DNA from: Fulvivirga maritima
Lineage (GTDB): Bacteria > Bacteroidota > Bacteroidia > Cytophagales > Cyclobacteriaceae
Length of the DNA: 64,000 nt
Assembly: GCF_021389955.1 (NCBI RefSeq)
Contig: NZ_CP089980.1
Location: 5,699,001-5,763,000, forward strand
Reading direction: 5' to 3'
The notes under the pieces are model-generated. The model had not been told where the DNA came from. It saw only the letters and a program-made list of their open reading frames with translations, and did no database searches. The position numbers were made by a program, and so were the translations under genes. Positions 3,001 to 28,894 of the stretch are shown piece by piece. Position 1 is the first letter of the stretch; each line of letters starts with the position of its first letter.

Positions 3001-3366
3001 AGATTCAATAGATTTACTAGTAGTGGAAGACTTAGGATATGATATTTCATACCATAGATGTAAATCATATTTACGGTGCTTTGCTTCATACTTACCTGCA
3101 TGAGCAAAAACTCTCTTCATGGATACAATCTTACTTTTTTCGTTCAAAGCATCCATTGAAGGGAACCCAGTTACTATATATCCTTTACTCGATTTATTTA
3201 AACTGGACTTTTCGATCCTGGCCGCTGCTTGCTCGGTCAGTTTCAAACGTAGGGTACTACTTTTAGGGTCAGATTGCGCCGCAAGCAGAAAAGGAAGCAG
3301 CATAAACCCTACTAAAAACAGCCATTGCCTATACAGCATGACTCTATCTATATAGATGTTTTTCAT
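1..3366 (-). CDS. Secreted subtilisin-like S8 serine peptidase with FN3 and ASH-type modules (3' truncated by window)
   Basis: A large exported endopeptidase. Read on the minus strand it is open for 1122 codons and runs off the window, so the C terminus is missing. Residues 1-30 form a signal peptide (hydrophobic run ending LLAAQ). The catalytic triad is complete: Asp209 in VIDGGVDVDH, His263 in DSHGTHVGG, Ser437 in GTSMACPHVSG. A fibronectin-III-like module follows at about 500-595 (EAIDDLAVTDVYQNSITLTW), then a beta-rich region and two ASH/choice-of-anchor-D-like modules from about 925 and 1033. A T9SS sorting domain would lie outside the window, so its presence is unknown. The start ATG was chosen because it gives the full signal peptide; Met10 is an alternative. 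Isolated gene; no promoter recognised. Confidence 0.93.
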   Translation of the reverse strand, partial: MKNIYIDRVMLYRQWLFLVGFMLLPFLLAAQSDPKSSTLRLKLTEQAAARIEKSSLNKSSKGYIVTGFPSMDALNEKSKIVSMKRVFAHAGKYEAKHRKYDLHLWYEISYPKSSTTSKSIESLRSAYAQLSEVQVAEVYLEKKRSYEEESMKPSKVNVLDTLADDPQLSLQWHYNNTGQTGGTPGADISLYQAWGLETGSSDVIVAVIDGGVDVDHQDLAGNMWNNPDEIPGNGIDDDNNGYVDDVYGYNFADGTGEIPGDSHGTHVGGTIAAETNNGIGVAGIAGGTGADDGVRLMSCTTFGVTTNGGFDEAFIYAADNGAVIAQNSWGYINPGDFEQSVLDAIDYFIAEAGYDENGDPYGPMQGGIVIFAAGNDGVDGEWYPGYYEPVLAVAGTDHNDNQYVGSNRGDWVEMAAPAVNVYSSFPNNQYGSATGTSMACPHVSGVAALIVSKFAGNITPEQVWSRLVETTDELPNLPPGFGTGRLNAFSALQEDDGTSPEAIDDLAVTDVYQNSITLTWTAPSDPGNGSASLYDIRYSTEPITEENFSSATQVGDEPTPGAAGTSEEFEVEGLNASSTFYFAIKSADFFGNLSELSNIATGTTENAPVISIVPDSLDIDIDVMRNPVATASITLSNEGDGANLEYAMSAAIVSQSQSFTSKLYPGDGLNRINMQQYGVGNSSEGVSPKAAGVSRTSEYQPYADAIDAIDSIAYDEPDNVAEDFVGLTSGAAFSSAVRFDVEQSVFTLTHVKNFFRTETLADPTTILEIYSGENLGSMELLLSQEVNLASEEGEYFTIPLEVPQTFYEGEVFWVVAKFPSGVSYPQGFDTDVTPRSNTFFYSADGGSSFSDLPYTLKVRALSASGFGVNWITFDPVTGTIAPGESEDVEITFDASTVGNGEYGVSIIAENNDPANANASIPASVTVFGQVPDLVTDVQFLEFGSVFVGNTEELPISIVNNGLGDLELTDISVEGFAFDVEPSSLSLAPGEEGTLLVTFSPAYAGNINGTLNITSNDPSLSSLEIPLVGVGTSPPIIGVTPEEVVTATLDAGDSTTQTIEITNYGNYPLTFSFPELAVERLLADPSIEKNNTSKIETIELTSKDQLDTRKGHPVLLGAGEDLD

Positions 3367-3820
3367 TTAGTTGGTTTTAGATTGGTTAATACACCTGCAT
3401 AGCGGTATCAGGCCACAAAAAGAAGCGGCGAATAGAGTTGGTATGTAGGGTAATAACCAGTTTGTTAGAAATTAGGTTGAAAACTCACCCGGTCTGATAA
3501 TGAACTAATCTAAATGGTTTGAAAATGTGATAGGGAAGGATTCCCAAAGATGTGAAAAAATGATCAGTCTATTTCAGCTTCCGAGCTTGATACGACTTCC
3601 AAGCTAAGTAAAACCGAAAATGACAATTAGGTGGCGAAGGTTGAAATAGGGAAATTTTATTTCCATAAATCCAATATAATAGATCAATTATTCTATACCT
3701 AATTATTTTTAGCAAAATTTATTCTGGAATTTAAACTATTCTCATAATAATTTAAATTTCAGATCATAAAAAAAGCCCTCTCGCTATCGAGAGGGCTTTC
3801 ATTAGTAATTTTACAGCAAA
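3367..3820. other. Intergenic region between the S8 peptidase and the TPR lipoprotein gene
   Basis: 454 bases, very AT-rich, without a credible gene in either strand. The only structure seen is the hairpin terminator near 3774-3797. The peptidase promoter should lie in the part next to 3367, but no TAnnTTTG element was found on the minus strand. Confidence 0.6.
3768..3797 (-). terminator. Rho-independent terminator after the TPR lipoprotein gene
   Basis: A 10-bp perfect stem (AGCCCTCTCG / CGAGAGGGCT, 3774-3783 and 3788-3797) with a 4-base loop. On the minus strand it is followed by a run of seven T, so it ends the minus-strand operon at 3821-6105. Confidence 0.85.
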
Positions 3821-4417
3821 TTAATTGCAATATTTTTTCAAAACTTGATCTGCATTAGAAGCACCTAGCGATTTGGCCATTTTAAAATCTGAACAAGCCT
3901 GACTACGTCTTTTTTTATAGATATTAAGCAGTCCTCTGGAAAGGTAAGCATCAGCATATTGTTTATTAACACTAATAGCATCATTATACGCTGTCAAGGC
4001 CTGATCTAACTCCCCTAGCTTTTGGAAAGCCTTCCCTTTTAAGGTATAAGCTGCCTCATTACTCTCATCATACTTTAATGTTTTATCTACATAGAAAACT
4101 GTGTTTTCATAATCATGCTGTCTATAATAAAAATCACTGGCTAAGCTTAAATAAGCATTAGCATTTAGAGGATCTTCGCTAAGCACTTTTTTAAAGTCTT
4201 CTACTGCCTTTTCACTTTGTCCCAGCTCTTCATAGGCTCTGCCTCTGTTATATAATGACTTTACATGAGCTGGCTCTAATTTCAGGTATTCGGTGTAAGC
4301 CTCCACCGCTTTGGCGTAGTCTCCCTTTTTAAAATATTTATCTCCTAACTCCGATCTTTCGTCTTTACAGCTAAAAATAAAAAGAGTTAATAGTACTACT
4401 ATAAATGTTTTCTGCAT
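3821..4417 (-). CDS. TPR-repeat lipoprotein
   Basis: A 198-residue exported lipoprotein: lipobox LFIFSC with the lipidated Cys at position 17. The rest is a chain of about five tetratricopeptide repeats (for example YFKKGDYAKAVEAYTEYLKLEPAHVKSL, given here as the region 28-55, then 60-90, 95-125, 128-160 and a degenerate last one). TPR arrays bind partner proteins; no catalytic motif is seen. It is the last gene of a minus-strand run with the hydrolase and DUF3108 genes (76 bases from the former) and is closed by a strong terminator. Partner unknown. Confidence 0.85.
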   Translation of the reverse strand: MQKTFIVVLLTLFIFSCKDERSELGDKYFKKGDYAKAVEAYTEYLKLEPAHVKSLYNRGRAYEELGQSEKAVEDFKKVLSEDPLNANAYLSLASDFYYRQHDYENTVFYVDKTLKYDESNEAAYTLKGKAFQKLGELDQALTAYNDAISVNKQYADAYLSRGLLNIYKKRRSQACSDFKMAKSLGASNADQVLKKYCN

Positions 4418-4493: not shown

Positions 4494-5252
4494 TCAAATT
4501 GATTTCAAAAATCCTGATAGTGCCATCCAATATTCGTCAGAATCGGCGTATTCGCTCCACAACGCTTTGGCTCCATGATTACCCGCTGTTTCTGGCAGGT
4601 AATACTGCTTTTCTTCAGAAGGAATAGACACATACATGCCCCACCAATTGTTCTTTTCACTGCGGGCAGAAGTTACAAATACCGGCTGTGTTACACGGGA
4701 GGCTCCTGATGTAATATAATCACGGCCTACCCCCTGAGATGAAAAGTACTCGCCAGGTGAGAAAGCTATGACAGCATCTACTTTATCAGACATCTCCCCT
4801 GCCAGCTTTAAGGCAAGTGATGATGAATAAGAGCTGCCCCATACAATTAGCTTACCTTTAGTAAGGCGCGAGCTACCATATTTAACAGCCGCCTGCATAT
4901 CCTGATAGGCGTCTACATAACGAGTATTTTTGGAAGCTTTAAGGGCATTGATATTAGTTTCATTCTGCACATCATTAACAGCTCCCCCTGAGCGCAGGTC
5001 TACAGCCAGACAGCTATACCCCAAAGCATTGAGCTTGGGAGCTATCTCCAGATACTCCCCTCGGCTCCAACCTGCCTGATGAAACAAAATGATAAGCGGT
5101 GAGGTGCTTTTTCTCACAAAGTAAAAATCAGCTGACATTTCCACCCCATCTGAAGATTTGAAATGTAACAGCTCTTTTTTCACTCCTACCGATTGATTGT
5201 AGTTAAAGACCAACTGTGACCACAAGATCAACGATAGTGTTAAAGAATACAT
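4494..5252 (-). CDS. Alpha/beta hydrolase, probably exported
   Basis: A 252-residue alpha/beta-hydrolase fold protein. The nucleophile elbow is WGSSYSSS (about residue 140), a G-x-S-x-S variant of the usual GxSxG; an acidic residue would be in the strand around VFVTSARSE and the catalytic His is in GNHGAKAL near 225. The oxyanion strand LIILFHQAGWSRGEY is typical of dienelactone-hydrolase-like enzymes. The N terminus is hydrophobic, compatible with a signal peptide or anchor. It lies 37 bases after the DUF3108 gene, same strand. The substrate cannot be told. Confidence 0.8.
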   Translation of the reverse strand: MYSLTLSLILWSQLVFNYNQSVGVKKELLHFKSSDGVEMSADFYFVRKSTSPLIILFHQAGWSRGEYLEIAPKLNALGYSCLAVDLRSGGAVNDVQNETNINALKASKNTRYVDAYQDMQAAVKYGSSRLTKGKLIVWGSSYSSSLALKLAGEMSDKVDAVIAFSPGEYFSSQGVGRDYITSGASRVTQPVFVTSARSEKNNWWGMYVSIPSEEKQYYLPETAGNHGAKALWSEYADSDEYWMALSGFLKSI

Positions 5253-14501: not shown

Positions 14502-17375
14502 TCACCCTACCATACCCTCCACAAACACCTCGACAAACTGCTTCATCTTTGAAATGATGCGTTCTCCAATTGATCTGGCTTGCAATACACTAGGACGATT
14601 ATCAAGGCATTTGAATACCTCATCTCTCAATGGCTCCTGGTGGCTAAAAATGTAGGCATCAATCAATGATTTGAATTGCTCCTGGTCAAGGTTTTCTTCC
14701 TCACAGAGTTTTTGAAGTGCCAAGACCTTTTGTTCTTCCCAATACTTTTCAAATTCATCAGAAATCATATCTGCGTGAGGAATTTTAGGCAGGTGCTCTT
14801 CTATAAACTTCTCGATAAGTTCTCGCTTACTTCTTAGCTCAACTTCATTGTTAAGCATATCCATAATCTGCTTTTTCTGCTTGGCAGCTTCATTGGCCTT
14901 AGCTGTTTTAAGTTTGACTAGCAGCTTTATAATGTAACTAACATTAATCTCATCTCTGTGAATCAGCTCCAACTCAAAGTCTACGTCATTGAGGATAGAT
15001 TCTTTTAGCTTGGCCGTATCACTTTTTACTTTATCATAAAGGTCAAGGTATTTGCTTTTGTAATCTTCAAAAGCCTGCTCAGTCATGGGTAGATCATCCC
15101 AACTAAAATCCGTAAATGATGTAAGCACATTCTTAACCCTCATCAAGGCTCTGAAAGACTGAACAAAGGTCATTTCATCATCTTCTGTTAGCAGATCATC
15201 AACAATTCCTACTGTAGGAGCTACTTTGAGTAAGTCGGCAAAGGCATTGCTGAATTTTCTAACGATTTCTTCGTACGGAGGAAGTATGATTTCTTCAATA
15301 GCCTCCTTGTTAGAGAATAAAGTAATGGCTTCATCAGTGGCTTTCTTAAGATTTCTGAAGGCCATAATATTCCCTTGAGACTTGGTTTCATTGATGATGC
15401 GATTAGTTCTGGAATAAGCTTGTATAAGCCCATGATACCGAAGGTTCTTGTCCACATATAGAGTATTGACCATTTTAGCATCAAATCCTGTTAAAAACAT
15501 GTTTACTACGAGTAGAATATCTAACCTATCTCTATCTTGAAAATCTTCCTTCTCTCTATTTTTTAGCCGTTTACTAATGTCCTTGTAATAGTTTTCAAAT
15601 TGCTTACTGTCTTTTGTGGTAAACTTAGTGTCATACATAGCATTGTAGTCTTTGATGAACTCATCGAGTTTATCACGGGTTGAACTGCTTATGTATTTGA
15701 GTTTAGGTTCAGCCGCAATTGACATGTCTCCCGGAAGCATGCCTGCTGCATCAGGATCATCTTCATTAACACCATAGGTAAATATTGTGGCTACTCGTAA
15801 ATCATGTTTCCCTTCCTTTATCTTCTTCTTAAAGAGCTCATAGTAAGTAATCAGATTCGGAATACTACTTACGGCAAAAATTGATGAGAAAGCTTTATTA
15901 TGTGTTTTGGTAGTGTGATAGTCTATAATATATTCAACGATCTTTTCTAATCGCTTAGGTGAGTCTATTACCTCGGTTTTGTCAATATCCTCCACCTCTA
16001 TATCCAGTAGCGTATTACTTTTTTGCTTGTACTTCCCGATATACTCAACACTGAACTTCAATACATTCTGATCTCGAATGGCATCGGTGATTACATATTT
16101 ATGCAAACACTCCCCAAATAAGTCTTTGGTGGTACGCTTACCTAGGTCGTTTTTAGCTGCATTATCAGCAAAGATGGGTGTGCCGGTAAAACCAAATAAC
16201 TGACTGCCTTTAAAGTAATTAACAATACGTTTATGTGTGTCTCCAAACTGACTGCGGTGACATTCATCAAAAATGAATACTACTCTTTTGTCCTTAAGTT
16301 TATCCAGCTTCTTTTCGTACCGTTTTTTGGAAATAGCATTATTTAACTTTTGAATCGTAGTAAGCACCAACTTGGTATCATCTGTAAATTGCTTGACCAG
16401 CGAGGAGGTATTATCAGTTACATCTACACTTCCCTTTTTAAAGCTATTAAACTCGTTCATGGTCTGGTAATCGAGGTCTTTACGATCGACCACAAATACT
16501 ACTTTATGCACTTCCGGCAAGTCCATGATGATTTGGCTGGCTTTGAAGGAAGTTAATGTTTTACCTGAGCCGGTAGTATGCCAGATATAGCCACTATCCT
16601 TAGTAGTTTGCACATGATCAATGATAGCCTCTACAGCATAATACTGGTAGGGACGAAGCACCATCATCACTTTATTGGTTTCGCTCATCACTACATAATG
16701 AGCGATCATTTTACTCAGGTGTTCTTTGTTGAGGAATGAGTTGGTAAACTCAGATAGCATAGTGGTTCGTTTGTTATTCTCCTCCGCCCAGAAGAATGAT
16801 TGTTTAAAAGACTGGAGTCGGTTATTAGCCAGGTATTTGGTATTAACTCCATTACTTATCACAAACAGCTGCACATATTGAAACAGCCCATGATTACTCC
16901 AAAATGACTGCCTTTGATAGCGATTAATCTGATTGAAGGCCTCTTTCATTTCGATGCCTCTACGCTTAAGCTCTACCTGAACGAGTGGCAGGCCATTGAC
17001 AAGGAGCGTTACATCATAACGGTTTTTGTAAGTACCCGCTTGTGAAACCTGGTTAGTGACCTGGAATAGATTATTGTCTCTGTGCTCACTATCAAAAAAT
17101 TGAATATAGGAAATGCTCCCATCTTCCCGTGTAAGTGCAAACCGATCTCTAAGTGTCTTAGACTTCTCAAATACATTACCCTTTGCCAAATAATTGAGCA
17201 CCTGATCAAACTCCTTGTCACTTAACTGAACCTTATTAAAAAGTTCTAACTGCGATTTTAAATTGGCAAGTAAGTCATGGCCATCTCGAAGTAGAATACG
17301 CTCATATCCCAAGCTTTCAAGTTGCTTAATAAAGTTATTTTCTAATATGGCTTCGGGTTGGGTATTCATTGCCAT
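14502..17375 (-). CDS. hsdR: Type I restriction-modification system restriction (translocase/nuclease) subunit
   Basis: 957 residues, normal for HsdR. It cuts unmethylated DNA after ATP-driven translocation, in complex with HsdM and HsdS. The N-terminal PD-(D/E)xK nuclease is at about 118-140 (RYDVTLLVNG...VQVELK); the SF2 motor follows with Walker A TTGSGKT (about 268), DECH box (about 373), FGFTGTP motif III and the later VNMFLTGFDAKMVNTLYVDK. A C-terminal helical region completes it. The start ATG overlaps the end of the abi gene by 10 bases, so translation is probably coupled. Last intact gene of the island next to mnmE. Confidence 0.95.
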   Translation of the reverse strand: MAMNTQPEAILENNFIKQLESLGYERILLRDGHDLLANLKSQLELFNKVQLSDKEFDQVLNYLAKGNVFEKSKTLRDRFALTREDGSISYIQFFDSEHRDNNLFQVTNQVSQAGTYKNRYDVTLLVNGLPLVQVELKRRGIEMKEAFNQINRYQRQSFWSNHGLFQYVQLFVISNGVNTKYLANNRLQSFKQSFFWAEENNKRTTMLSEFTNSFLNKEHLSKMIAHYVVMSETNKVMMVLRPYQYYAVEAIIDHVQTTKDSGYIWHTTGSGKTLTSFKASQIIMDLPEVHKVVFVVDRKDLDYQTMNEFNSFKKGSVDVTDNTSSLVKQFTDDTKLVLTTIQKLNNAISKKRYEKKLDKLKDKRVVFIFDECHRSQFGDTHKRIVNYFKGSQLFGFTGTPIFADNAAKNDLGKRTTKDLFGECLHKYVITDAIRDQNVLKFSVEYIGKYKQKSNTLLDIEVEDIDKTEVIDSPKRLEKIVEYIIDYHTTKTHNKAFSSIFAVSSIPNLITYYELFKKKIKEGKHDLRVATIFTYGVNEDDPDAAGMLPGDMSIAAEPKLKYISSSTRDKLDEFIKDYNAMYDTKFTTKDSKQFENYYKDISKRLKNREKEDFQDRDRLDILLVVNMFLTGFDAKMVNTLYVDKNLRYHGLIQAYSRTNRIINETKSQGNIMAFRNLKKATDEAITLFSNKEAIEEIILPPYEEIVRKFSNAFADLLKVAPTVGIVDDLLTEDDEMTFVQSFRALMRVKNVLTSFTDFSWDDLPMTEQAFEDYKSKYLDLYDKVKSDTAKLKESILNDVDFELELIHRDEINVSYIIKLLVKLKTAKANEAAKQKKQIMDMLNNEVELRSKRELIEKFIEEHLPKIPHADMISDEFEKYWEEQKVLALQKLCEEENLDQEQFKSLIDAYIFSHQEPLRDEVFKCLDNRPSVLQARSIGERIISKMKQFVEVFVEGMVG

Positions 17376-18313
17376 AGCGGTTCATTAATCCAGTCCATTA
17401 ATGTACCATCAGGATTGGAAGGTATTCCCAAGTATTTGATTGGAACATTAGGGTATTTAGTAAATAAAGCCTGTAATTTTTGTCTTAGACTATTTGATGG
17501 GTTTGCTCTTAGCAGTAGGTATTTTAAAACGCAAATAAAATAGAATACACGTTTATTATTTTGAAAACGCGGTCCAATCCATGGCCCAACAGGCTTCTTT
17601 AGTCGATCAGGTTCAATAGCTAAATCTCTATTCCATAACCTGGCATGATGTGCACAAATATTCCTAACATAAGTAATGGCGTGTAGCCATGATGCGAATA
17701 CTTTGTGATGAACATCAAAGAAGTCTGCTATTCTTTTTTTATCGCTATTATTTCGCAATCCACGAAATAAATGTGACAGGTCACCCATTGTGAGCAGCTC
17801 AAAATTCATCCATGCAGGTGGATTAGATGGAGAGCTATATTCTCTCATGTAATGTTTTATAAACACTTCTGGATTTCTTACTGTTTTAGCACGTGATATG
17901 ATAGCTTGAAAGTCGTTATAAGGATCAATGAGCTTTCCAATCCTATTATAAAACGGTGTGATAAAATGTCTTTGATCATCCTGCCAATGTGAATCGTTAT
18001 AATGTATAGCCATTTTATATATAAACTGGGTTCTAATAGCTACTTCTACTCGTTCTATGCAGTCAAAAACTAATAATCTTAATTCCCTATTAAAAGAATA
18101 TGTATTGATAATGTCTTTGAATGTAATTCCTTGATTAAACTGATTTTTAATTGACTGACAGGGTAAAAAGTAGGCGCTGAGCCTGTAATAACTTATTTCC
18201 TGCAAATAACAGATGGCTTCTTCTTCATCAGCAACGGTTAAACCTCTGGTTTTTAATAATTCAAGCTGATCTTGAAAGGATAGGGGGGCTTTATGGTAAA
18301 TTCGTTTTGCCAT
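17366..18313 (-). CDS. Abi_2 (AbiD/AbiF-like) abortive-infection family protein
   Basis: 315 residues matching the Abi_2 family: the opening YHKAPLSFQDQLELLKTRGL, YYRLSAYFLP (about 42-51), FNRELRLLVFDCIERVEVAIR (here as 74-94) and RNICAHHARLWNRD (about 218-231). The last contains R-x4-H, the signature of HEPN ribonucleases, so an RNA-cutting toxin activity is likely by family. It lies inside the type I RM operon between hsdS and hsdR, 240 bases after hsdS, with its own promoter and a structured leader (see ncRNA). It overlaps hsdR by 10 bases. Expected role: back-up abortive infection when restriction fails. Confidence 0.88.
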   Translation of the reverse strand: MAKRIYHKAPLSFQDQLELLKTRGLTVADEEEAICYLQEISYYRLSAYFLPCQSIKNQFNQGITFKDIINTYSFNRELRLLVFDCIERVEVAIRTQFIYKMAIHYNDSHWQDDQRHFITPFYNRIGKLIDPYNDFQAIISRAKTVRNPEVFIKHYMREYSSPSNPPAWMNFELLTMGDLSHLFRGLRNNSDKKRIADFFDVHHKVFASWLHAITYVRNICAHHARLWNRDLAIEPDRLKKPVGPWIGPRFQNNKRVFYFICVLKYLLLRANPSNSLRQKLQALFTKYPNVPIKYLGIPSNPDGTLMDWINEPLWQ

Positions 18314-18321
18314 GGCCCTAA

Positions 18322-18446
18322 AATGAAAAGACCCCCCAAGTGTGCTTCAGTGAGAGGCAAGGGAGGTATATTAAATTTAATATTTTATTTCTTCTAAAAG
18401 ACACACCCTGTGACGCTGTTCTGATGGGTAGCGTGGCGTGTACTGT
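18322..18446 (-). ncRNA. Candidate structured RNA upstream of the Abi_2 gene (abiF-RNA-like)
   Basis: On the minus strand a predicted start near 18446 gives about 125 nt ending just before the abi ATG. Hairpin 1: ACACGCC (18435-18441) pairs with GGTGTGT (18401-18407, one G-U), and stacked on it ACGCT (18430-18434) pairs with AGCGT (18413-18417), with a 5-nt bulge and a 12-nt loop. A 16-bp palindrome lies at 18368-18383. Hairpin 2: ACCTCCC (18361-18367) pairs with GGGGGGT (18331-18337) and is followed by CTTTTCATTTT, a terminator-like end. Loop bases ACCC could pair with the G run. Conserved RNAs upstream of abiF genes have been reported; family membership here is inference from position and structure. 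Confidence 0.5.
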
Positions 18447-18451
18447 TAGTG

Positions 18452-18459
18452 CAAATATA
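18452..18459 (-). promoter_or_regulatory. -7 promoter element driving the abi leader RNA and abi
   Basis: TATATTTG on the minus strand fits TAnnTTTG exactly. It lies within the operon, downstream of hsdS, so the RNA and abi can be expressed separately from hsdM/hsdS. Confidence 0.5.
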
Positions 18460-18468
18460 ACATGATTT

Positions 18469-18525
18469 GAAACAAAATGTTTCATAAATGTTATTTTTTG
18501 TTTCAAATGCGAAACAAAACATTTC
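18469..18525. promoter_or_regulatory. Cluster of GAAACA/TGTTTC operator-like palindromes
   Basis: GAAACAAAATGTTTC (18469-18483) is a perfect inverted repeat with a 3-base centre. GTTTCAAATGCGAAAC (18500-18515) and GAAACAAAACATTTC (18511-18525) are related, overlapping sites. They sit immediately upstream of the abi -7 element, where a repressor would cover the -33 region. No obvious DNA-binding repressor gene is found in the island. Confidence 0.45.
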
Positions 18526-18553
18526 ATAATTATACAATATGTTGATGTATTAC

Positions 18554-19795
18554 TCATACAAACATCTGCTGCAATAGCCCTTTTTTAAAGGTTTGGTCTT
18601 TCTCTAACTCTTGATTGGCAATATATATTTTGTCACTTAGCGATTTTAAGAACTGCCCGATTTTAACCTGCTCCCTTAAACTAGGTGTTTTAAATTTTAT
18701 ATCATTGAAGAATTCCACCACACTGAGATTAAGCAGTCCATGGTTTCTAGCTCCTTCTTGTGCTATTTTATGTAGCTCATGGTTAATACTCCCATGTTCA
18801 AGGAACGCCATAAAATAATCTGAATCATTATTCTCATTTAATTTGAAACATATATACAAGGTTGAAACAACACCTTTTTCGTATTTATCTAACCTCTTAA
18901 TTGCCCCAAGTGGATAACCTTTGGAATAACTTTTATTATATGCAAACTCACCTTTATGTAGCAAATAATATCCTGTTACATCTTTCGCTGAAACTGACTT
19001 ATTGAAATAATCCTCTTGGTTTACAAGGCCTTGCTGTGCTGAAATAGTTAATACATTAAGGTTATTCTCTTTATTTTTCCTTTTAACCCTTTCAAATACA
19101 CTACCCAACCTCTTCTCCTCCCACTCAGGAAACTCCTCATCATTATCATCCTTAAACCGAATCTCCTGAGCAAAGAGCTTTTGCATAAGTCCTTTTTTGT
19201 ATTGCTCCAACAGCTCCTTTTTACGGGTAAGCTGCTCGATCTTTTTATCAACAGCACTTAGGAAATCAGCTATTTTTTTCTGCTCGGGGAGGGAGGGAAG
19301 GTTTAATGGTATGCTCTTGAGATCACCAGTTGTAAAACCCTTAATTGAGGTGCCTTGTGAGTACCTGTGAAGCAAATTATTATTAGCTAAAAAATAATAA
19401 GCAATAAACTGACTAATATCTTTTTTGGGAGTCAAATTGGCAAAATCTTGACTAGTGCACAACTCCTTCTTATTTACAGCTAATTTTCCAACACCAACCC
19501 TCGAAACAAACAAAACACTATTAGCAGGAATAATTTTTGTTGCGCTTTCTTTAATTGCCTTATGGTTTAGAAACCTGTTAATATCTAAATTTAAGATATC
19601 AGATTCCTTAACATCAGAACTTGAAATCCAAGGCACGTCCCCATTCCAATAATCATTATGTTTTGTTGATGGTGTTCCTCCACCCCTAAAGCTTCCAATT
19701 ACACCTAACTTGGTATTATTCCATATATCTTCAAACTCCTTAAACCTCAATTTAGGAACCATTTTCACCTCTTTTTTCTCAAACACCTCTTCCAT
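18554..19795 (-). CDS. hsdS: Type I restriction-modification system specificity subunit
   Basis: 413 residues, standard HsdS size. It has two target-recognition domains, each followed by a conserved coiled-coil: TRD1 at about 20-165 then LPSLPEQKKIADFLSAVDKKIEQL (here 166-189), TRD2 at about 225-365 then LREQVKIGQFLKSLSDKI. The two TRDs set the bipartite recognition site; it cannot be predicted from sequence. ATG at 19795 gives a short lead before the family's usual MVPKLRFKEF opening (Met12), so either start is possible. Eight bases after the GxxExxY gene. Confidence 0.94.
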   Translation of the reverse strand: MEEVFEKKEVKMVPKLRFKEFEDIWNNTKLGVIGSFRGGGTPSTKHNDYWNGDVPWISSSDVKESDILNLDINRFLNHKAIKESATKIIPANSVLFVSRVGVGKLAVNKKELCTSQDFANLTPKKDISQFIAYYFLANNNLLHRYSQGTSIKGFTTGDLKSIPLNLPSLPEQKKIADFLSAVDKKIEQLTRKKELLEQYKKGLMQKLFAQEIRFKDDNDEEFPEWEEKRLGSVFERVKRKNKENNLNVLTISAQQGLVNQEDYFNKSVSAKDVTGYYLLHKGEFAYNKSYSKGYPLGAIKRLDKYEKGVVSTLYICFKLNENNDSDYFMAFLEHGSINHELHKIAQEGARNHGLLNLSVVEFFNDIKFKTPSLREQVKIGQFLKSLSDKIYIANQELEKDQTFKKGLLQQMFV

Positions 19796-19803
19796 AGTCA
19801 GAA

Positions 19804-20244
19804 TTAGGATTTTTGGGATTTATGAATGACAGGATTATTGTTTAAACGTAGGCTTGGGTTCTGTTTGTTTTTTGGGTGCCTGAGCCGTTTTATTTCCAGG
19901 CTCTGTGCTCCGCAATTGAGTAGTAAGCCCAAGTCTACTTTGTAGGCTACAAGGTAATTCAATCCCTGTGCCAGGTGTACATCTTCAAGCATGGTAAGTG
20001 CTTTTAATTCTACCATTACTTTTTCCTCCACTAGAAAATCAACTCTACGAGAGCCAATAGGTTGCTCATCATAAAACAAAGGCATTTCTAATTCCCGTTG
20101 AAACGATATACATTGTTTTTCCATTTCAATCGCCAGCGCTCTTTGATAGATCACTTCTTGCAATCCATTGCCCAATGTACCGAGCACCGTCATTGCACAG
20201 CCAATGATCCGATAAGTTAAGTCATCCTTTATTTCTTCCTTCAT
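19804..20244 (-). CDS. GxxExxY protein (PD-(D/E)xK-fold)
   Basis: 146 residues. Contains the name-giving motif in GNGLQEVIYQRAL (about 26-38) and a nuclease-fold core SRRVDFLVEEKVMVELKAL (about 64-82) with the D...ExK arrangement of PD-(D/E)xK enzymes. The family is common in Bacteroidota and of unknown function. The unusual aspect is its place: between hsdM and hsdS, 51 and 8 bases away, in the same operon. The basic C-terminal tail (RHPKNKQNPSLRLNNNP) is probably unstructured. Confidence 0.87.
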   Translation of the reverse strand: MKEEIKDDLTYRIIGCAMTVLGTLGNGLQEVIYQRALAIEMEKQCISFQRELEMPLFYDEQPIGSRRVDFLVEEKVMVELKALTMLEDVHLAQGLNYLVAYKVDLGLLLNCGAQSLEIKRLRHPKNKQNPSLRLNNNPVIHKSQKS

Positions 20245-20295: not shown

Positions 20296-21855
20296 TTAAA
20301 ATGGAGTATCAATCCCTAGTTCCTTACAATAGCTCTTGATGGTGTCATCGGTAGCCTGCATATCCTTTTCAAGGGCTTGCAACTCTTTCGCCACTGCTTC
20401 AATATCCACAGGTTCTTCTTCTTCAAAAGTGTCTACATAGCGAGGAATGTTGAGGTTGTAGTCATTCTCAGCTATCTCCTCCATACTTGCCACATGGCTA
20501 TATTTTTCCTCTTCCTTTCGTTCTCTGTAAGTGGTTATAACCTTATCTATATCTTCCTCACGCAGGTAATTCTGTGTTTTAATCTTCTCAAAGTGTTGGC
20601 TGGCATCAATGAATAGTACGTTGTCTGAGTGTTCTCTTTTCTTTTTCAATACCAATACACAAGTAGGTATGCTCGTGCCATAGAAAATGTTGGCAGGCAA
20701 ACCTATCACCGCATCCAGGTAATTACGGTCTTTAATAAGATACTCTCTAATATGTCCTTCCGCTGCTCCTCTAAACAATACACCATGGGGTAATACACAC
20801 GCCATTATACCATCATCAGATAGTTGGTGAACCATGTGTTGTACGAAGGCAAAGTCAGCCTTACTACTGGGTGCAGTTTTGCCGTAAGCAGCAAACCGGT
20901 CGTCATTAATCACCGCATTGGGGTTCCACTTGGCAGAGAAAGGGGGATTGGCCACAATGGCTTCAAAGCGTTCGTCAATGTGTTGCGGTTGCTCTAAAGT
21001 ATTTTCATTTTTAATATCAAATCTGCGGTAATGCACATCATGCATAATCATGTTCATGCGGCATAAGTTGAAGGTAGTAGGGTTCATTTCCTGTCCATAA
21101 AACTTACCCACTTCTTTTACCTCCTTCGCCACACGCAACAATAAAGACCCTGAACCACAAGTTGGGTCATAAACACTCTTCAATTTGTCTTCACCTGTTG
21201 TAACAATGCTTGCTAACAGCTTACTTACCTGTTGCGGGGTATAAAATTCACCTGCTTTCTTACCTGCACCACTGGCAAACTTGCCAATCAGGTATTCATA
21301 GGCATCTCCCAATACATCAGCCGTCACATCATCAATTCTAAAATCAATCTCCTCCAAATGAGACATGACCTTTACAATCAATTCGTTTTTAGCGTTCTCT
21401 GTCTTCCCAAGTTTTGAGGAGGTAAGGTCAAGGTCTTCGAAGAGGTTGACAAACTCTTCCTCACTGTCGGTACCCATCGTGCTTTGCTCTATGTGGTTAA
21501 GCACCTTATTTAAGTCATCCAAAATGAATTTACTCTTACCCTCAGCATTTCCACGCTTAGCGAGTCTGCTGAACAGCTCTGAAGGCAATAAGAAGTACCC
21601 TAAAGCATCTAAAGCCTCCGCTTTAATGGCTTCCAAGTATTGTTGCCCTTTTTCTGACTCCTCATCGATCTCATCATACGTCATACCATCGGGCTTTAAG
21701 ATGGTGTTGGCATAGATGTCCATTTTCTTGCTGAGGTATTTATAAAAGATAAACCCTAGTATATAATCTCTAAAGTCATCCGCATCCATCTTCCCTCTAA
21801 GGGTATCGGCAATATTCCAGAGTTGTTGTTCAAGCTTTCGTTTTTCTTCCGTCAT
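20296..21855 (-). CDS. hsdM: Type I restriction-modification system DNA methyltransferase subunit
   Basis: 519 residues. N-terminal HsdM_N helical domain (about 1-140, DFRDYILGFIFYKYLSKK), then an N6-adenine methyltransferase with SAM motif YDPTCGSGSLLL (about 225-236) and catalytic ANPPFSAKW (about 306-314). Methylates adenine in the target set by HsdS and protects host DNA. First gene of the hsdM, GxxExxY, hsdS, abi, hsdR operon. No promoter motif was recognised upstream (21856-21970). Confidence 0.95.
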   Translation of the reverse strand: MTEEKRKLEQQLWNIADTLRGKMDADDFRDYILGFIFYKYLSKKMDIYANTILKPDGMTYDEIDEESEKGQQYLEAIKAEALDALGYFLLPSELFSRLAKRGNAEGKSKFILDDLNKVLNHIEQSTMGTDSEEEFVNLFEDLDLTSSKLGKTENAKNELIVKVMSHLEEIDFRIDDVTADVLGDAYEYLIGKFASGAGKKAGEFYTPQQVSKLLASIVTTGEDKLKSVYDPTCGSGSLLLRVAKEVKEVGKFYGQEMNPTTFNLCRMNMIMHDVHYRRFDIKNENTLEQPQHIDERFEAIVANPPFSAKWNPNAVINDDRFAAYGKTAPSSKADFAFVQHMVHQLSDDGIMACVLPHGVLFRGAAEGHIREYLIKDRNYLDAVIGLPANIFYGTSIPTCVLVLKKKREHSDNVLFIDASQHFEKIKTQNYLREEDIDKVITTYRERKEEEKYSHVASMEEIAENDYNLNIPRYVDTFEEEEPVDIEAVAKELQALEKDMQATDDTIKSYCKELGIDTPF

Positions 21856-23610: not shown

Positions 23611-23833
23611 TATTTCACCGTTAACGTACTTAAGAAACTAAAAGTTTTGCTAAGATACAAGCCTATCCACTAATTGATTCTACTGCAAATATTGATGGTA
23701 ACCAATGAAAACTGAAGGCCAATAAATAATCACACCACCCATAATGCTAAATAAATCAAAATGTCTCTAGCTTTATACTACTCTCACAATTTTCCATCAC
23801 CAAACACATGTGATAATATTTTTTTCCTTATTT

Positions 23834-24922
23834 ATGCATAAAACCAAGCTTACAAGCATGATTATCAGTATTATAGTTACAATATTCCTTGTTTTTTATG
23901 GCGGCATATTTATGATGTCTCCTATGATGATTGCCTCTCACGGCTTTTCTGATTCACTTTCTTCTATCATTACAGCACTATTTTTCCTGGGCTATCCTGT
24001 AATTATATTCTTGCTGATGACCATTTTCAATATCCCTTTTTATGGCATGGCTCCCTCCAAATGGCTCATCGGGTTTTCGGTACCTTTTATCCTGGCAGTA
24101 ATGTTCTACCGAATTCCTCAAATGATTATTAATATTAATAAAGGTATTCCTAACTCCGGTTATCATATTGGTAAAGACGCCGTTTATCTTAATGGCAAAA
24201 AAATAAAAAGTGCTGATCCCGCTTCTTTTGATCCTATGGAAGACGTCACCTACTATTCTAAAGATGCTAAGCACGTATTCTACTATGGCAAAGTAATTCC
24301 TAGTTCAGATCCGGCTACTTTCACTCCAGTACCTACTGAAAATGAAAAAGGATATGGTGGTTACTGGAAGGATAAAAATAATGTATATATAGATGGCAAA
24401 ATTCTAAAAGGAGCTGATCCTGCCAGCATGGCATGCCTCAGATCATTATACGCTAAAGATGCTAAGCACATATACTACAGTGGTCGCCTGGTAGAAGGTG
24501 CCGATCCGCAAACCTTCCATTTCGTAAGTGATGGCATTGCTATAGATGAGCAATTTATTTATGTGTATGGCCGAAAATCTAATATTCAAACAGACACTAA
24601 AAATTTCGAAGTAGTCGGTGATGAAAGTTCACCATCATTTTGCCGTGATAAAAACAATGTATATCTGATCATCTTTCATAATGGAGATCCACTACTCGAA
24701 GTTGAAGGCGCTGATCCTACAACATTTGAAAAAATGGAAAGAGGCTATTATAAAGACAGCCATCAAGTGTATTATCATGACAGCAGCACCAGATCAGTAA
24801 AAGTGCTTGAAGAAGCCGATCCCGCCAACTTCAGTACTGGCTATGATCACATTACTAGGACAGAAGCCAGAGATAAAAATCATGCTTATATGAGCGGGAA
24901 ACTAGTTTCTCCAAAAGAATAA
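23834..24922 (+). CDS. Membrane-anchored DKNYY-repeat protein (copy 1)
   Basis: About 362 residues. Three hydrophobic segments in the first 95 residues (around IISIIVTIFLVFYGGIFM, TALFFLGYPVIIFLLMTIF, WLIGFSVPFILAVMF) anchor it; the rest has six or more DKNYY-type repeats, each with a D/K-x-x-x-V/I-Y-Y element and a GADPxTF element (for example YSKDAKHVFYYGKVIPSSDP). Function unknown. ATG 23834 is preferred over GTG 23810, which would add eight unneeded residues. A closely similar second copy follows at 25393. Confidence 0.8.
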   Translation: MHKTKLTSMIISIIVTIFLVFYGGIFMMSPMMIASHGFSDSLSSIITALFFLGYPVIIFLLMTIFNIPFYGMAPSKWLIGFSVPFILAVMFYRIPQMIININKGIPNSGYHIGKDAVYLNGKKIKSADPASFDPMEDVTYYSKDAKHVFYYGKVIPSSDPATFTPVPTENEKGYGGYWKDKNNVYIDGKILKGADPASMACLRSLYAKDAKHIYYSGRLVEGADPQTFHFVSDGIAIDEQFIYVYGRKSNIQTDTKNFEVVGDESSPSFCRDKNNVYLIIFHNGDPLLEVEGADPTTFEKMERGYYKDSHQVYYHDSSTRSVKVLEEADPANFSTGYDHITRTEARDKNHAYMSGKLVSPKE

Positions 24923-25392: not shown

Positions 25393-26453
25393 ATGATTAT
25401 CAGTATTATAGTCACATTATTACTTATTTTCTATAGCGGCATCTTTGTGATGTCTCCTATGATGATTGCCTCTCACGGCTTTTCTGATTCCCTTTCTTCT
25501 ATTCTTATAGCACTAGCTTTCCTGGGTTATCCTATAATTATATTCTTGCTGATGACCATTTTCAATATTCCCTTTTATGGCATGGATGCCAGCAACTGGC
25601 TCATCGGGTTTTCAATACCTTTTATCCTAGCTGTAATGTTTTACCGAATTCCTAAAATGCTTATCAATATTATAAGGGGTATCCCTAACTCCGGTTATTA
25701 TATAGGTAAAGAGGCTGTTTACCTTGAAGGTGAAAAAATAAAAAATGCTGATCCTGCTTCGTTTGATCCTATGAATGACTTTAACTACTACTCTAAAGAT
25801 ACTAATCACGTATTCTTCAATAGCAAAGTAATTCCTAATTCGGACCCTGCCACTTTTACTCCTGTACCTTCTGAAGAAGAGGGTTATGGTGATTACTGGA
25901 AGGATAAAAACCATGTGTATTTAAGTGGCAGCATTCTGAAAGGAGCTGACCCTAACAGCATGGTATGTCTTAGATCATCATATGCTAAAGACGCTAAGCA
26001 CATGTACTACAGATTTTGGATAGTAGAAGATGCCGATCCGAAAAACTTCCATTTCATAAGTGATTGCATTGCCATAGATGAGCATAATATATATGTGTAT
26101 GGCCAAAAATCTAACATTCAAACAGACACTAAAAATTTCGAAGTAGTCGGTGATTACAATTCACCTTCATTCTGCCGCGACAATAACTGTATTTATCTGA
26201 TCATCTTTCATAATGGCGACCCTCTACTCAAAGTTGAAGGCGCTGATCCTACAACATTTGAAAAAATAGAAGGAGGCTATTATAAGACATCCATCAAGTG
26301 TACTATCATGACAGCATCACCAGATCAGTAAAGGTGCTAGAAGAAGCCGATCCCTCCACCTTCACTACTAGCTATGACCACATTGCCCGAACAGACGCCA
26401 GAGATAAAAATCATGCTTATATGAGCGGAAAGCTAGTTCCTCCAAAAGATTAA
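25393..26453 (+). pseudogene. DKNYY-repeat membrane protein (copy 2), frameshifted near the 3' end
   Basis: Parallel to copy 1 along its whole length (IISIIVTLLLIFYSGIFVMS; YYSKDTNHVFFNSKVIP). At about 26283 one A is missing compared with copy 1 (TATTATAAGACA against TATTATAAAGACA), so the reading frame ends early at 26331. The lost tail is still readable to the stop at 26451-26453 (DKNHAYMSGKLVPPKD). A second lost A near 25383 puts the upstream ATG of copy 1 out of frame, leaving 25393 as start. Probably a decaying tandem duplicate. Confidence 0.75.
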
Positions 26454-27520: not shown

Positions 27521-28894
27521 ACTCTGGTCTAAGAAATTTTAGCGATTCTAAGCAAAAATAAAGTGGTTTTCTTCTAATCTGGAAAAGTGAGCCCTCTATG
27601 GACTAAATAAAGGGTATTGATTGGTTTTATATATTGTTTTTTGAAGTTCTAGGTCTGGATTGTTTAGAAAGCGGGTAAGGTGAACATAGGCCATCAAGTG
27701 AAACCTTACCAATGAGACCATATTAGAGAAGGCCCATCTTTTTTTGATCTGTTTTCGGACTACTTCCATCAATAATAGACAGATCAGGGCACTCCAAATT
27801 TGGATCTCAATAGCATTTTGGTTGTCCCCCAGAAAATATTTGAGAGGAAAGTTCTGCTTCAGCTTTTTAAATAAAAGCTCTATCTGCCATCGGTATTTAT
27901 AAATGGCCGCTATTGTGGCTGCTTCCAACTCCATATTATTGGTCATAAACACTAATAATTTATTATTGAGGTCATCATAATAGGCTATTCTTCTATTTTG
28001 AAGCTCTTGCACTTGTCCATCAGTCTTGAAACTGATAACAACTTTTTCATCCTTAAGTACACAAAAGTCTTTATCTTCAGGCAGTTCTAGCTCATCTATT
28101 GATTGATATCTGGCATTTTCCTTCATTCTAGTAATGTAAAATATCCCTTGATGACTCCATTGTGCGTATTGTCTATAATCGATATACCCTTTATCCATCA
28201 CCACATAGGATCCTTCTGGGAGTTGTAATTGCTTTAAAAATGTATGATCATGCTGACTTCCCTTGGTCAACCGTACTAAACATGGCATTAATTCTGCCGC
28301 ATGAATCATTACATGAGCTTTAATGCCTCCCTTGCTTTTGCCATCTTTTCTAGGGCGTCCTGCTACCTTGAGAATATCTTTAAACAGACTAATAATCGTT
28401 GAATCAACAATATAAAGTTTATTGAGAACTTCCATTCTCAAGCGGCTGTCCGGCAAAAGGTGCCGATACTTTTTAAACAATTTCATGTAAATGTCTGCAA
28501 AGACTATACTACTGCGTTTTTTGTTGCTATCTGATAAAGTGGAACGTCTGGGTATAAATTGAATACCTAAATGGATCAGCTTGTTTTGGCAGGCCAAAAG
28601 CCCCGTAGTAAGCTCTCTGAGAGCACTTGCCCCACTGAAACAGCAGTATAACATGCTTACTAGGTGATGCCAAGTATTCAATTTCTTGTAATATCTGTCA
28701 GATTGGTATTTTGATATTATTTGATTTAACACCGATTTATCTATCAGCGATAATAGTTGAGAAAAGATTGGCTGTCCGTAGAAATATGTATTTTTACTCA
28801 TGTGTGATTTTTTGTTGTGGTAAACCGAAAATACACATTATGGGGCACTCTTGAAATTATTCAGAGGCCCCTATCTTTTTCTCGGACACTAGTG
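27504..28894. mobile_element. IS4-family insertion sequence, 1391 bp
   Basis: Bounded by perfect 13-bp terminal inverted repeats CACTAGTGTCCGA (27504-27516) and TCGGACACTAGTG (28882-28894), flanked by the 9-bp direct repeat ATTTAAAAT. One transposase gene on the minus strand fills most of it. The ends and target copies are unmutated, so the insertion is recent. It splits the gene at 26570-29889. Confidence 0.95.
27596..28801 (-). CDS. IS4-family transposase (DUF4372 type)
   Basis: 401 residues, intact. DDE transposase: first Asp in YIVDSTIISLF (about 130), second in YVVMDKGYIDYRQY (about 200), and the IS4 signature Y-(2)-R-(3)-E-(6)-K exactly matched by YKYRWQIELLFKKLK (about 307-321). The N-terminal GQPIFSQLLSLIDKSVLNQI is typical of the DUF4372-containing IS4 group. 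Catalyses cut-and-paste movement of the element. Confidence 0.95.
   Translation of the reverse strand: MSKNTYFYGQPIFSQLLSLIDKSVLNQIISKYQSDRYYKKLNTWHHLVSMLYCCFSGASALRELTTGLLACQNKLIHLGIQFIPRRSTLSDSNKKRSSIVFADIYMKLFKKYRHLLPDSRLRMEVLNKLYIVDSTIISLFKDILKVAGRPRKDGKSKGGIKAHVMIHAAELMPCLVRLTKGSQHDHTFLKQLQLPEGSYVVMDKGYIDYRQYAQWSHQGIFYITRMKENARYQSIDELELPEDKDFCVLKDEKVVISFKTDGQVQELQNRRIAYYDDLNNKLLVFMTNNMELEAATIAAIYKYRWQIELLFKKLKQNFPLKYFLGDNQNAIEIQIWSALICLLLMEVVRKQIKKRWAFSNMVSLVRFHLMAYVHLTRFLNNPDLELQKTIYKTNQYPLFSP

Follow-up and report, generated by a model that had tools for sequence, protein, structure and literature searches.

What occupies the 240-base gap (18314-18553, minus strand) that separates hsdS from abi in a type I restriction-modification (RM) operon of Fulvivirga maritima, and could it tie a restriction enzyme to a toxin? 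The window, by which we mean the whole 64,000-nucleotide stretch of DNA that was analyzed, belongs to a genome assembled as one contig of 6.39 Mb. Its hsdM, hsdS, and hsdR genes are co-oriented on the minus strand, with a PDDEXK_3 gene, the gap, and abi in between, and hsdR overlaps the abi stop codon (ATGA). The features, in the direction of the operon, are as follows.

20296..21855, minus strand: hsdM, type I methylase subunit (Pfam N6_Mtase, 4.9e-115; HsdM_N)
19804..20244, minus strand: PDDEXK_3 gene in the hsdM/hsdS interval (PF13366, 7.8e-35), presumably of the GxxExxY type
18554..19795, minus strand: hsdS, specificity subunit (PF01420, 1.1e-38)
18469-18487 and 18511-18529: two 19-nt direct repeats at a spacing of 42 nt, ahead of the predicted promoter
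18452..18459, minus strand: predicted TAnnTTTG promoter box (TATATTTG), motif conserved in the clade
18392..18443, minus strand: hp1, hairpin assigned to class B of AbiFr (model R1, 59.5 bits)
18321..18372, minus strand: hp2, hairpin assigned to class A of AbiFr (RF03085, 25.4 bits; model R2, 69.3 bits)
17366..18313, minus strand: abiF (Abi_2), predicted toxin gene, 315 amino acids (PF07751, 4.9e-55)
14502..17375, minus strand: hsdR, with in-frame starts at 17375 and 17369

By homology, a small RNA with two hairpins, of a kind already known among antitoxins, is encoded in the gap, ahead of a predicted RNase toxin gene and a restriction gene. Our preferred reading, to which we assign a probability of roughly 0.83, is that an RNA of about 125 nt is transcribed from its own TAnnTTTG promoter and carries AbiFr hairpins in tandem, hp2 serving as the cognate antitoxin and attenuator of abi-hsdR and hp1 being a probable leftover.

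The abi product scored 187.1 bits against PF07751, well above the curated cut-off of 25.6, and also matched PADLOC AbiD (1.1e-74) and PDB entry 8vz6_A (PbAbiF; E 2.3e-49, residues 7 to 315). Residues 217 to 222 (17665-17648) read RNICAH, which fits the R(N/H/D)xxxH active site of HEPN proteins, and R217, N218, and H222 were invariant in 12 of 12 aligned AbiF rows; an AlphaFold2 model of the protein had a mean pLDDT of 83.1. We therefore identify the product, from these sequence matches, as AbiF, a predicted HEPN RNase homologous to the solved PbAbiF (8VZ6). It is the only Abi_2 gene in its own genome (E≤0.01). Matches to the protein at E≤1e-15 occurred in 42 of the 395 genomes of a phylum sample, its own genome counted, and close AbiF proteins (E≤1e-60) in 0 of 395 genomes in the order of G367. 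A contig scan for AbiF relatives yielded 584 confirmed loci, the best 80 of which were taken for comparison (numbered with an L below).

Rfam searched at gathering threshold gave 0 matches in the whole window. At permissive settings, the best family on 18200-18700 was RF03085, the abiF RNA, reportedly described by Weinberg in 2017, which matched hp2 at 18366-18331 (minus strand; E 0.026). Its 25.4 bits lie under the family's gathering cut-off of 37, so we do not file hp2 as an Rfam-grade member of RF03085. Scores of relatives fill the range (34.0 in L004, 35.5 in L024, 39.4 in L005, and 53.9 in L016). A genome-wide search with RF03085 returned a single match at E≤10 among the 150 of 2676 candidates that were scored, and this match stands before the genome's single Abi_2 match (E≤0.01). 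The shape of hp2 (an outer stem of 7 bp, a short inner stem, a 3' bulge, and a U-rich tail) agrees with the consensus structure of RF03085, with which it shares the position directly before an Abi_2 gene, the short inner stem inside an outer stem, a loop of about 11 nt, a 3' bulge of about 6, and the loop letters GCCUCUCA..GA.GC.CA; its outer stem covaries, and the two inner pairs counted are invariant. What sets it apart is the score.

A covariance model of hp2 relatives, R2, was built without the window and recovered hp2 at 18372-18321 with an E value of 3.2e-17, the next match in the window having an E value of 3.8. The R2 match stops at 18321, 7 nt ahead of the abi ATG. A hairpin of the hp2 type lies directly before abi in 13 of 14 relatives whose AbiF proteins are 47 to 75% identical to that of the window (L033-L039, L060, L113, and L119-L122); in the 14th, L040, the contig starts 63 nt before the AbiF match. 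In the alignment of the 13 relatives (A5, window omitted), 117 of 117 cells were paired and 5 pairs had two-sided changes, and for both covariation values 0 of 500 shuffles were as high. The U-run behind hp2 is also conserved among these relatives. From the Rfam similarity and the covarying family together, we classify hp2 as a divergent Rfam abiF RNA. The first-pass annotation had proposed a structured RNA of the abiF type before abi, and this is borne out, the search with the Rfam abiF model having succeeded only below the gathering score and covariation in homologous gaps having been found for the outer stems of both hairpin kinds. It had taken hp2 itself for a terminator-like hairpin; the hairpin is real, but it is also the part that resembles the Rfam abiF RNA.

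The other hairpin, hp1, the first in the direction of the operon, has an outer stem of 7 bp, an inner stem of 4 to 5 bp, a 6-nt 3' bulge (UCACAG), and a U-rich tail. Its class was modeled from 22 class-B RNAs, none of them from the window or its AbiF clade (model R1; alignment A4). Hairpins had been picked by regular expression, unsuitable ones (L053, L068, L073, L099, L102, and L031) being removed by hand, and the 22 rows came from 32 of 58 picks after ten were dropped, nine of a CCCCGC subclass and L018. In the 64-kb window, R1 found hp1 at 18443-18392 (E 1.3e-13), followed by hp2 as its second-best place (21.6 bits, E 0.0022), so that classes A and B look related. A further R1 match at 58911-58868 (E 0.025), a hairpin followed by a U-run, was taken as chance.

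All 242 of 242 cells in the class-B alignment were paired and 23 cells showed two-sided changes, each value being reached by 0 of 500 shuffles. Two of five covariation measures fail to beat shuffles. Two-sided changes occur at 3 pairs, a number that 189 of 500 shuffles also reach, and 188 of 500 reach the count of 8 further pair types. Inner stems were invariant in A4 and A5, so that the covariation support comes from the outer stems; loop and bulge bases are conserved in both alignments besides the stems. RF03085, run on 22 loci found with R1 (6 of them R1 members), gave no class-B match at E≤5, a difference from hp2. We conclude from these models that hp1 represents a second AbiFr class that is missed by Rfam and normally stands before another AbiF clade. 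The compound hairpin of 7+5 bp in the first-pass annotation is this one, real and with a covarying outer stem; it falls in the separate class and is not the Rfam-like part.

Upstream of hp1, the TAnnTTTG motif pointing at abi is present at 18459-18452, as had been proposed; we take it to be a promoter box of the Bacteroidota -7 type. In 13 of 14 close-clade AbiF loci, window counted, the motif occurs no more than 110 nt upstream of hp2 (L035 is without it), versus 1.75 of 14 expected from dinucleotide shuffles, and its position would place the transcript start near 18446. A simple promoter scan gave no useful result. The palindrome TGAAACATTTTGTTTCA, which the earlier annotation had listed among the structures of the gap, is present at 18484-18468, but it is upstream of the promoter and is thus outside the predicted RNA. 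It has 1 exact place in the genome and 3 with one mismatch, the same totals as a reversed control, and no palindrome-like repeat was seen in an informal look by eye at those relatives' gaps that were inspected. The idea of a regulon operator was dropped because of the single copy. The first of the two direct repeats overlaps the palindrome, and the repeat pair with the palindrome is a possible operator for some regulator.

Folding energy separates the gap from the RNA. The whole-gap fold beat 200 of 200 shuffles (z of -3.6), whereas the predicted 126-nt transcript alone had a z of -1.9 and was equaled by 9 of 200 shuffles, and the case for the RNA thus stands on homology and covariation. Could the hairpins be by-products of a small peptide gene? 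An open reading frame of 79 codons does run through the gap (18318-18557, minus strand), and the same frame is mostly open in the printed stretch of L163; it is broken in L173, L036, and L127, and the changes in the stems are compensatory, so that we rejected this reading as highly improbable.

AbiFr-like hairpins are a regular companion of these toxin genes. A model placed one by abi in 77 of the best 80 loci: 68 by R1 or R2 at E≤0.1, a count that includes 22 members of the models themselves, whose match is built in; RF03085 at gathering threshold accounted for 9 of the 12 others. Among the remaining three, L081 and L095 have a hairpin by eye, and L040 is the one cut short by its contig. The position of the hairpin varies. 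In five Bacteroidales loci it lies about 60 to 100 nt downstream of the abi match (L041, 5777-5831; L043, 8049-8102; L044, 7993-8047; L045, 2126-2177; L064, 1876-1931), where the RNA would be unable to act as a pre-toxin terminator. Two loci have two class-B copies about 570 to 580 nt apart upstream of one abi (L026, 830-881 and 1410-1461; L027, 840-891 and 1410-1461), and L019 has a row of repeats (3019-3846) at about 66-nt spacing, sub-threshold for a CRISPR repeat family, with abiF in the same locus.

The tandem of hp1 and hp2 was found in the window, in L163, and in L173/L177. In L163 it precedes a class-B AbiF that is 66% identical to the AbiF of L118; in L173/L177 (R1, 50.1 bits; R2, 61.8 bits) AbiF was not found in the locus. 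Two further loci, L036 and L127, have a tandem with a diverged hp1 in which, by eye, the 6-nt bulge is shrunken; R1 scored the hp1 of L036 at 29.3 bits and did not find that of L127 at E≤0.1.

Within the window, hp2 fits the adjacent toxin, and hp1 resembles the partner of another toxin, one not detected in the genome. The genome's one Abi_2 gene falls outside the AbiF clade that hp1 usually accompanies. Over 48 nt, hp1 is 96% identical to a toxin-free copy (L161), and its identity to class-B loci, L166, L105, L106, and L093 among them, is 92 to 94%; the best stretches in its clade mates L036, L127, L033, L113, and L121 reach 48 to 56% (identities are ungapped and so underestimate loci with indels, for example L150 and L173). 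At the protein level, AbiF of L105, L106, and L093 is just 35 to 36% identical to that of the window, so that hp1 appears to be paired with the wrong toxin. In its 3' bulge an A stands where C33 of A4 is nearly invariant in class B, which suggests that hp1 may already be inactive. We postulate that hp1 is probably left over from the loss or swap of its toxin.

Three readings of hp1 can be entertained: the leftover of a swapped cassette, the second motif of one antitoxin, or an antitoxin against a foreign AbiF. The second has a tested counterpart. RCd22 of Clostridioides difficile, as described in passages of its report, has two abiF motifs, neutralizes AbiFCd by binding, lowers abiF expression, and has a terminator at its end; changing both motifs together destroys its action (PMC12373285). 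By analogy, hp1 and hp2 would form one two-motif antitoxin, each hairpin sitting on one monomer of an AbiF dimer, and hp1 would be no leftover; the tandems of L163 and L173 and the diverged ones of L036 and L127 are compatible with this. On the other side, the two hairpins of the window belong to different classes, hp1 has mostly lost its 3' bulge by eye in L036 and L127, and the tandem precedes a class-B AbiF in L163 and has no AbiF found beside it in L173. Eight same-clade loci (L034, L035, L037, L038, L039, L060, L120, and L122, the last two labeled L128 and L130 in that R1 search) have no R1 match at the place of hp1 (E≤0.1) and none by eye, and in L060, L035, L038, and L039 R1 gives no match anywhere in the locus. 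We consider a two-motif antitoxin possible but rather improbable, and we retain the reading of hp1 as a leftover.

Class-B RNAs are found in places where the toxin is missing. Run at E≤1e-6, R1 matched 14 times among genomes of the host's order (291 searched) and 6 times among those of another order (164 searched). AbiF follows in 12 of these 20, window included (cut by the contig end in L168 and L170); it is split in L194, is reduced to a 39-residue fragment in L196, and was not found within about 1.5 kb on each side, contig permitting, in L167, L169, L171, L173, L175, and L197. Two more loci, L150 and L161, have the RNA between hsdS and hsdR and no AbiF match better than an E value of 0.2 in the stretch; the HsdR of L150 is, at 75%, the closest to that of the window among those compared. 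Class-B RNA without an intact toxin gene was thus seen in 9 loci. Seven of the 9 genomes are without Abi_2 at E≤0.001 (G1189, G1390, G1401, G1183, G1095, G1244, and G783; completeness, 94 to 100%), and two, G1278 and G742, have Abi_2 elsewhere. Eight toxin-free copies together with the hp1 of the window had 97 of 99 cells paired and two-sided changes at 4 pairs, of which one belongs to the inner stem; L196, omitted from this count, has a broken inner-stem pair by eye. These two-sided changes may predate the loss of the toxin.

Solitary copies bear on whether the RNA acts as an antitoxin at all. One rival reading is that the hairpins do no more than attenuate transcription and supply a promoter for abi-hsdR. 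In its favor, both hairpins are trailed by U-runs, hsdR stands tightly downstream, and L150 and L161 retain a promoter-like stretch and a hairpin before hsdR without abi. We regard this as quite unlikely. The conservation of loop and bulge bases goes beyond what stems would need, RNAs of the AbiFr kind bind and neutralize AbiF according to passages of a published account (PMC12373285), and searches of 3.7 to 10 kb around the toxin-free L167, L171, L173, and L175 gave no match to the hsd proteins of the window. In L169 there is a remote HsdR-like match, 22% identical, at a distance of about 2.4 kb.

A tentative extension of the preferred reading, which we hold to be more doubtful than likely, is that cells retain AbiFr RNAs as solitary antitoxins, that the RNA of the window is a hybrid whose hp1 is directed at an absent toxin and gives anti-addiction immunity, and that type I restriction is RNA gated. 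Under this extension, hp1 would protect against rival cassettes or AbiF carriers that enter the cell, and the RNA would set when restriction switches on, hsdR standing behind the attenuator. AbiF homologs (E≤1e-5) were found in 412 plasmid records, and in L191, on a mobilizable plasmid of Bacteroides fragilis, a class-B-like RNA (R1, 35.1 bits) stands just before the AbiF match, the annotated gene start being further upstream, so that RNA and annotation overlap; AbiF toxins do travel. For chromosomal systems in general, anti-addiction is a known role, as stated in passages of a published account (PMC12548467).

The place of abi directly before hsdR recurs. Homologs of the window HsdR follow AbiF directly in 12 of the best 80 loci (L033, L034, L036, L075, L076, L088, L093, L095, L097, L105, L106, and L110), and with the window, L127, L157, and L160 the total is 16, spanning Bacteroidota, Pseudomonadota, and a Spartobacteria metagenome-assembled genome. 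Upstream, hsdS is present in 14 of the 16, the contig ending first in L093 and L105, and R1 or R2 matches at E≤0.1 in 15 (the exception is L095). By script, 12 of 16 have an hsdR start in frame at -10 to +17 nt relative to the abi stop, and L097 overlaps by eye; the first start is at +34 nt in L034, +101 in L157, and +102 in L160, so that tight abi-hsdR coupling is not universal. Nor is a short hsdS-abi gap like that of the window the rule, given that this distance is 1.4 to 2.6 kb in 7 of 16 loci (L033, L036, L076, L088, L106, L157, and L160). The order is reversed in L090, with abi after hsdR. Given these 16 loci, in 13 of which abi and hsdR lie within 17 bases of each other, the RNA and its terminator probably gate HsdR as well as AbiF.

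The cassette itself seems to move. In L034 the AbiF is 71% identical to that of the window and the HsdR just 28% in a local match, which indicates that the cassette moved. A search of 98 genomes of the host's family with HsdR found 17 matches, spread over 16 of them, and among the 15 loci inspected (window, L127, and L150-L162, of which L156 and L162 were viewed only in part) 4 had AbiF, 2 had the RNA only, and 9 had neither. In L155, one of the latter, hsdS runs into hsdR. Other contents of the slot, by eye, were TIR-like, DUF262-like, and integrase-like genes; a 199-amino-acid open reading frame in L152 matched no Pfam family at E≤0.01. The pairs L157/L158 and L153/L154 combine near-identical hsdR genes with unlike upstream neighbors (L157 has AbiF there and L158 has other genes), which points to a fast turnover of the slot between hsdS and hsdR.

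PrrC is a member of the HEPN proteins and offers another model for a toxin in such a place. It is an anticodon nuclease whose gene lies within a type Ic hsd locus and which becomes active upon inhibition of restriction, and passages of the accounts show that an RNase toxin can serve as a guard (PMC12707154, PMC2610378). AbiF could likewise be a guard of the restriction complex, bound and kept silent by Hsd proteins and released once a phage disables restriction, with the RNA as a second lock; the window shares with PrrC of EcoprrI an RNase toxin gene within a type I hsd locus, and AbiF is found repeatedly just ahead of hsdR genes that belong to distant families. The comparison is one of gene order, and 68 of the best 80 AbiF loci have no homolog of the window HsdR directly after abi, contig ends included; PrrC is also of another protein family and silenced by the restriction enzyme, and no RNA antitoxin is named in those passages (PMC12707154, PMC2610378). 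We consider the guard model unlikely. A functional coupling of restriction and toxin is something we infer from gene order.

How might the preferred arrangement, with hp2 as antitoxin and attenuator, work? By homology with the tested RCd22 and AbiFr, hp2 would bind the AbiF RNase and hold it inactive; we presume it to be the cognate antitoxin. Its stem and U-run would stop most transcripts before abi, leaving the RNA in excess over the toxin. A simple terminator scan of the window found 0 sites; the loop of hp2 is longer and its structure compound, beyond what the scan allows, and as an intrinsic terminator hp2 would not be of the textbook type. Readthrough, from the TAnnTTTG promoter or from hsdM-hsdS upstream, would yield the abi-hsdR message. 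The start of hsdR overlaps the abi end, and the hsdR message must therefore cross the attenuator, unless there is a promoter inside abi; the attenuator would thus restrain toxin and restriction subunit alike while the upstream methylase genes escape, keeping HsdR lower than HsdM and HsdS. If the short-lived RNA dropped, for example upon transcription shut-off by a phage, AbiF would be freed and growth would stop. As for hp1, whose class occupies the corresponding position ahead of hsdR in related operons, it would have stayed after toxin loss or swap.

The nearest known systems match the window in part. Passages on AbiFCd/RCd22, a type III-like toxin-antitoxin system, describe a HEPN RNase motif, an RNA of about 100 nt that lies upstream and bears two hairpin motifs, and a terminator before the toxin; the HEPN motif and the hairpins have counterparts here, and the RNA and terminator have putative ones; that system differs in lying in a Bacillota prophage outside an hsd operon, with a terminator stem-loop apart from both motifs (PMC12373285). 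PbAbiF is a near full-length homolog of the AbiF of the window, and in the excerpted description bases of a single-stranded bulge in its AbiFr block the RNase; that description gives one AbiFr per monomer, and a tandem and an RM operon are absent from it (PMC12737573). In titles, abstract openings, and passages from a partial coverage of journals, AbiF RNA in hsd operons, hybrid tandems, and toxin-free AbiFr were not found. The AbiFr kind is known, then, and new as far as searched are class-B hp1, the slot for AbiF before hsdR, and the toxin-free class-B copies. The review that treats PbAbiF proposes AbiF and its RNA as ancestors of Cas13 and its guide (PMC12737573), so that the number of RNA classes and the way they match toxins bear on the origin of guide RNAs. 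The hybrid RNA and the toxin-free copies raise the questions of whether each hairpin class is specific to its own AbiF clade and whether the RNAs are kept as a shield against the toxins of other cells. A recurrent slot before hsdR could be a simple answer to the need for methylase before nuclease in some type I systems.

The hsd operon of the window ends about 80 nt from the stop of mnmE (14421), and in L178 a toxin-free AbiFr (5003-5077) is followed by a 29-residue stretch that matches the C-terminal part of MnmE. The mnmE gene may be an insertion site of the island; no duplicate of its 3' end was found as an island border within the window. Elsewhere in the window, two neighboring related open reading frames, 23810-24922 and the shorter 25393-26331, look similar by eye and contain repeats that, we assume, recall the DKNYY family. 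At 27596-28801, an open reading frame of 401 amino acids resembles an IS4-type transposase by eye.
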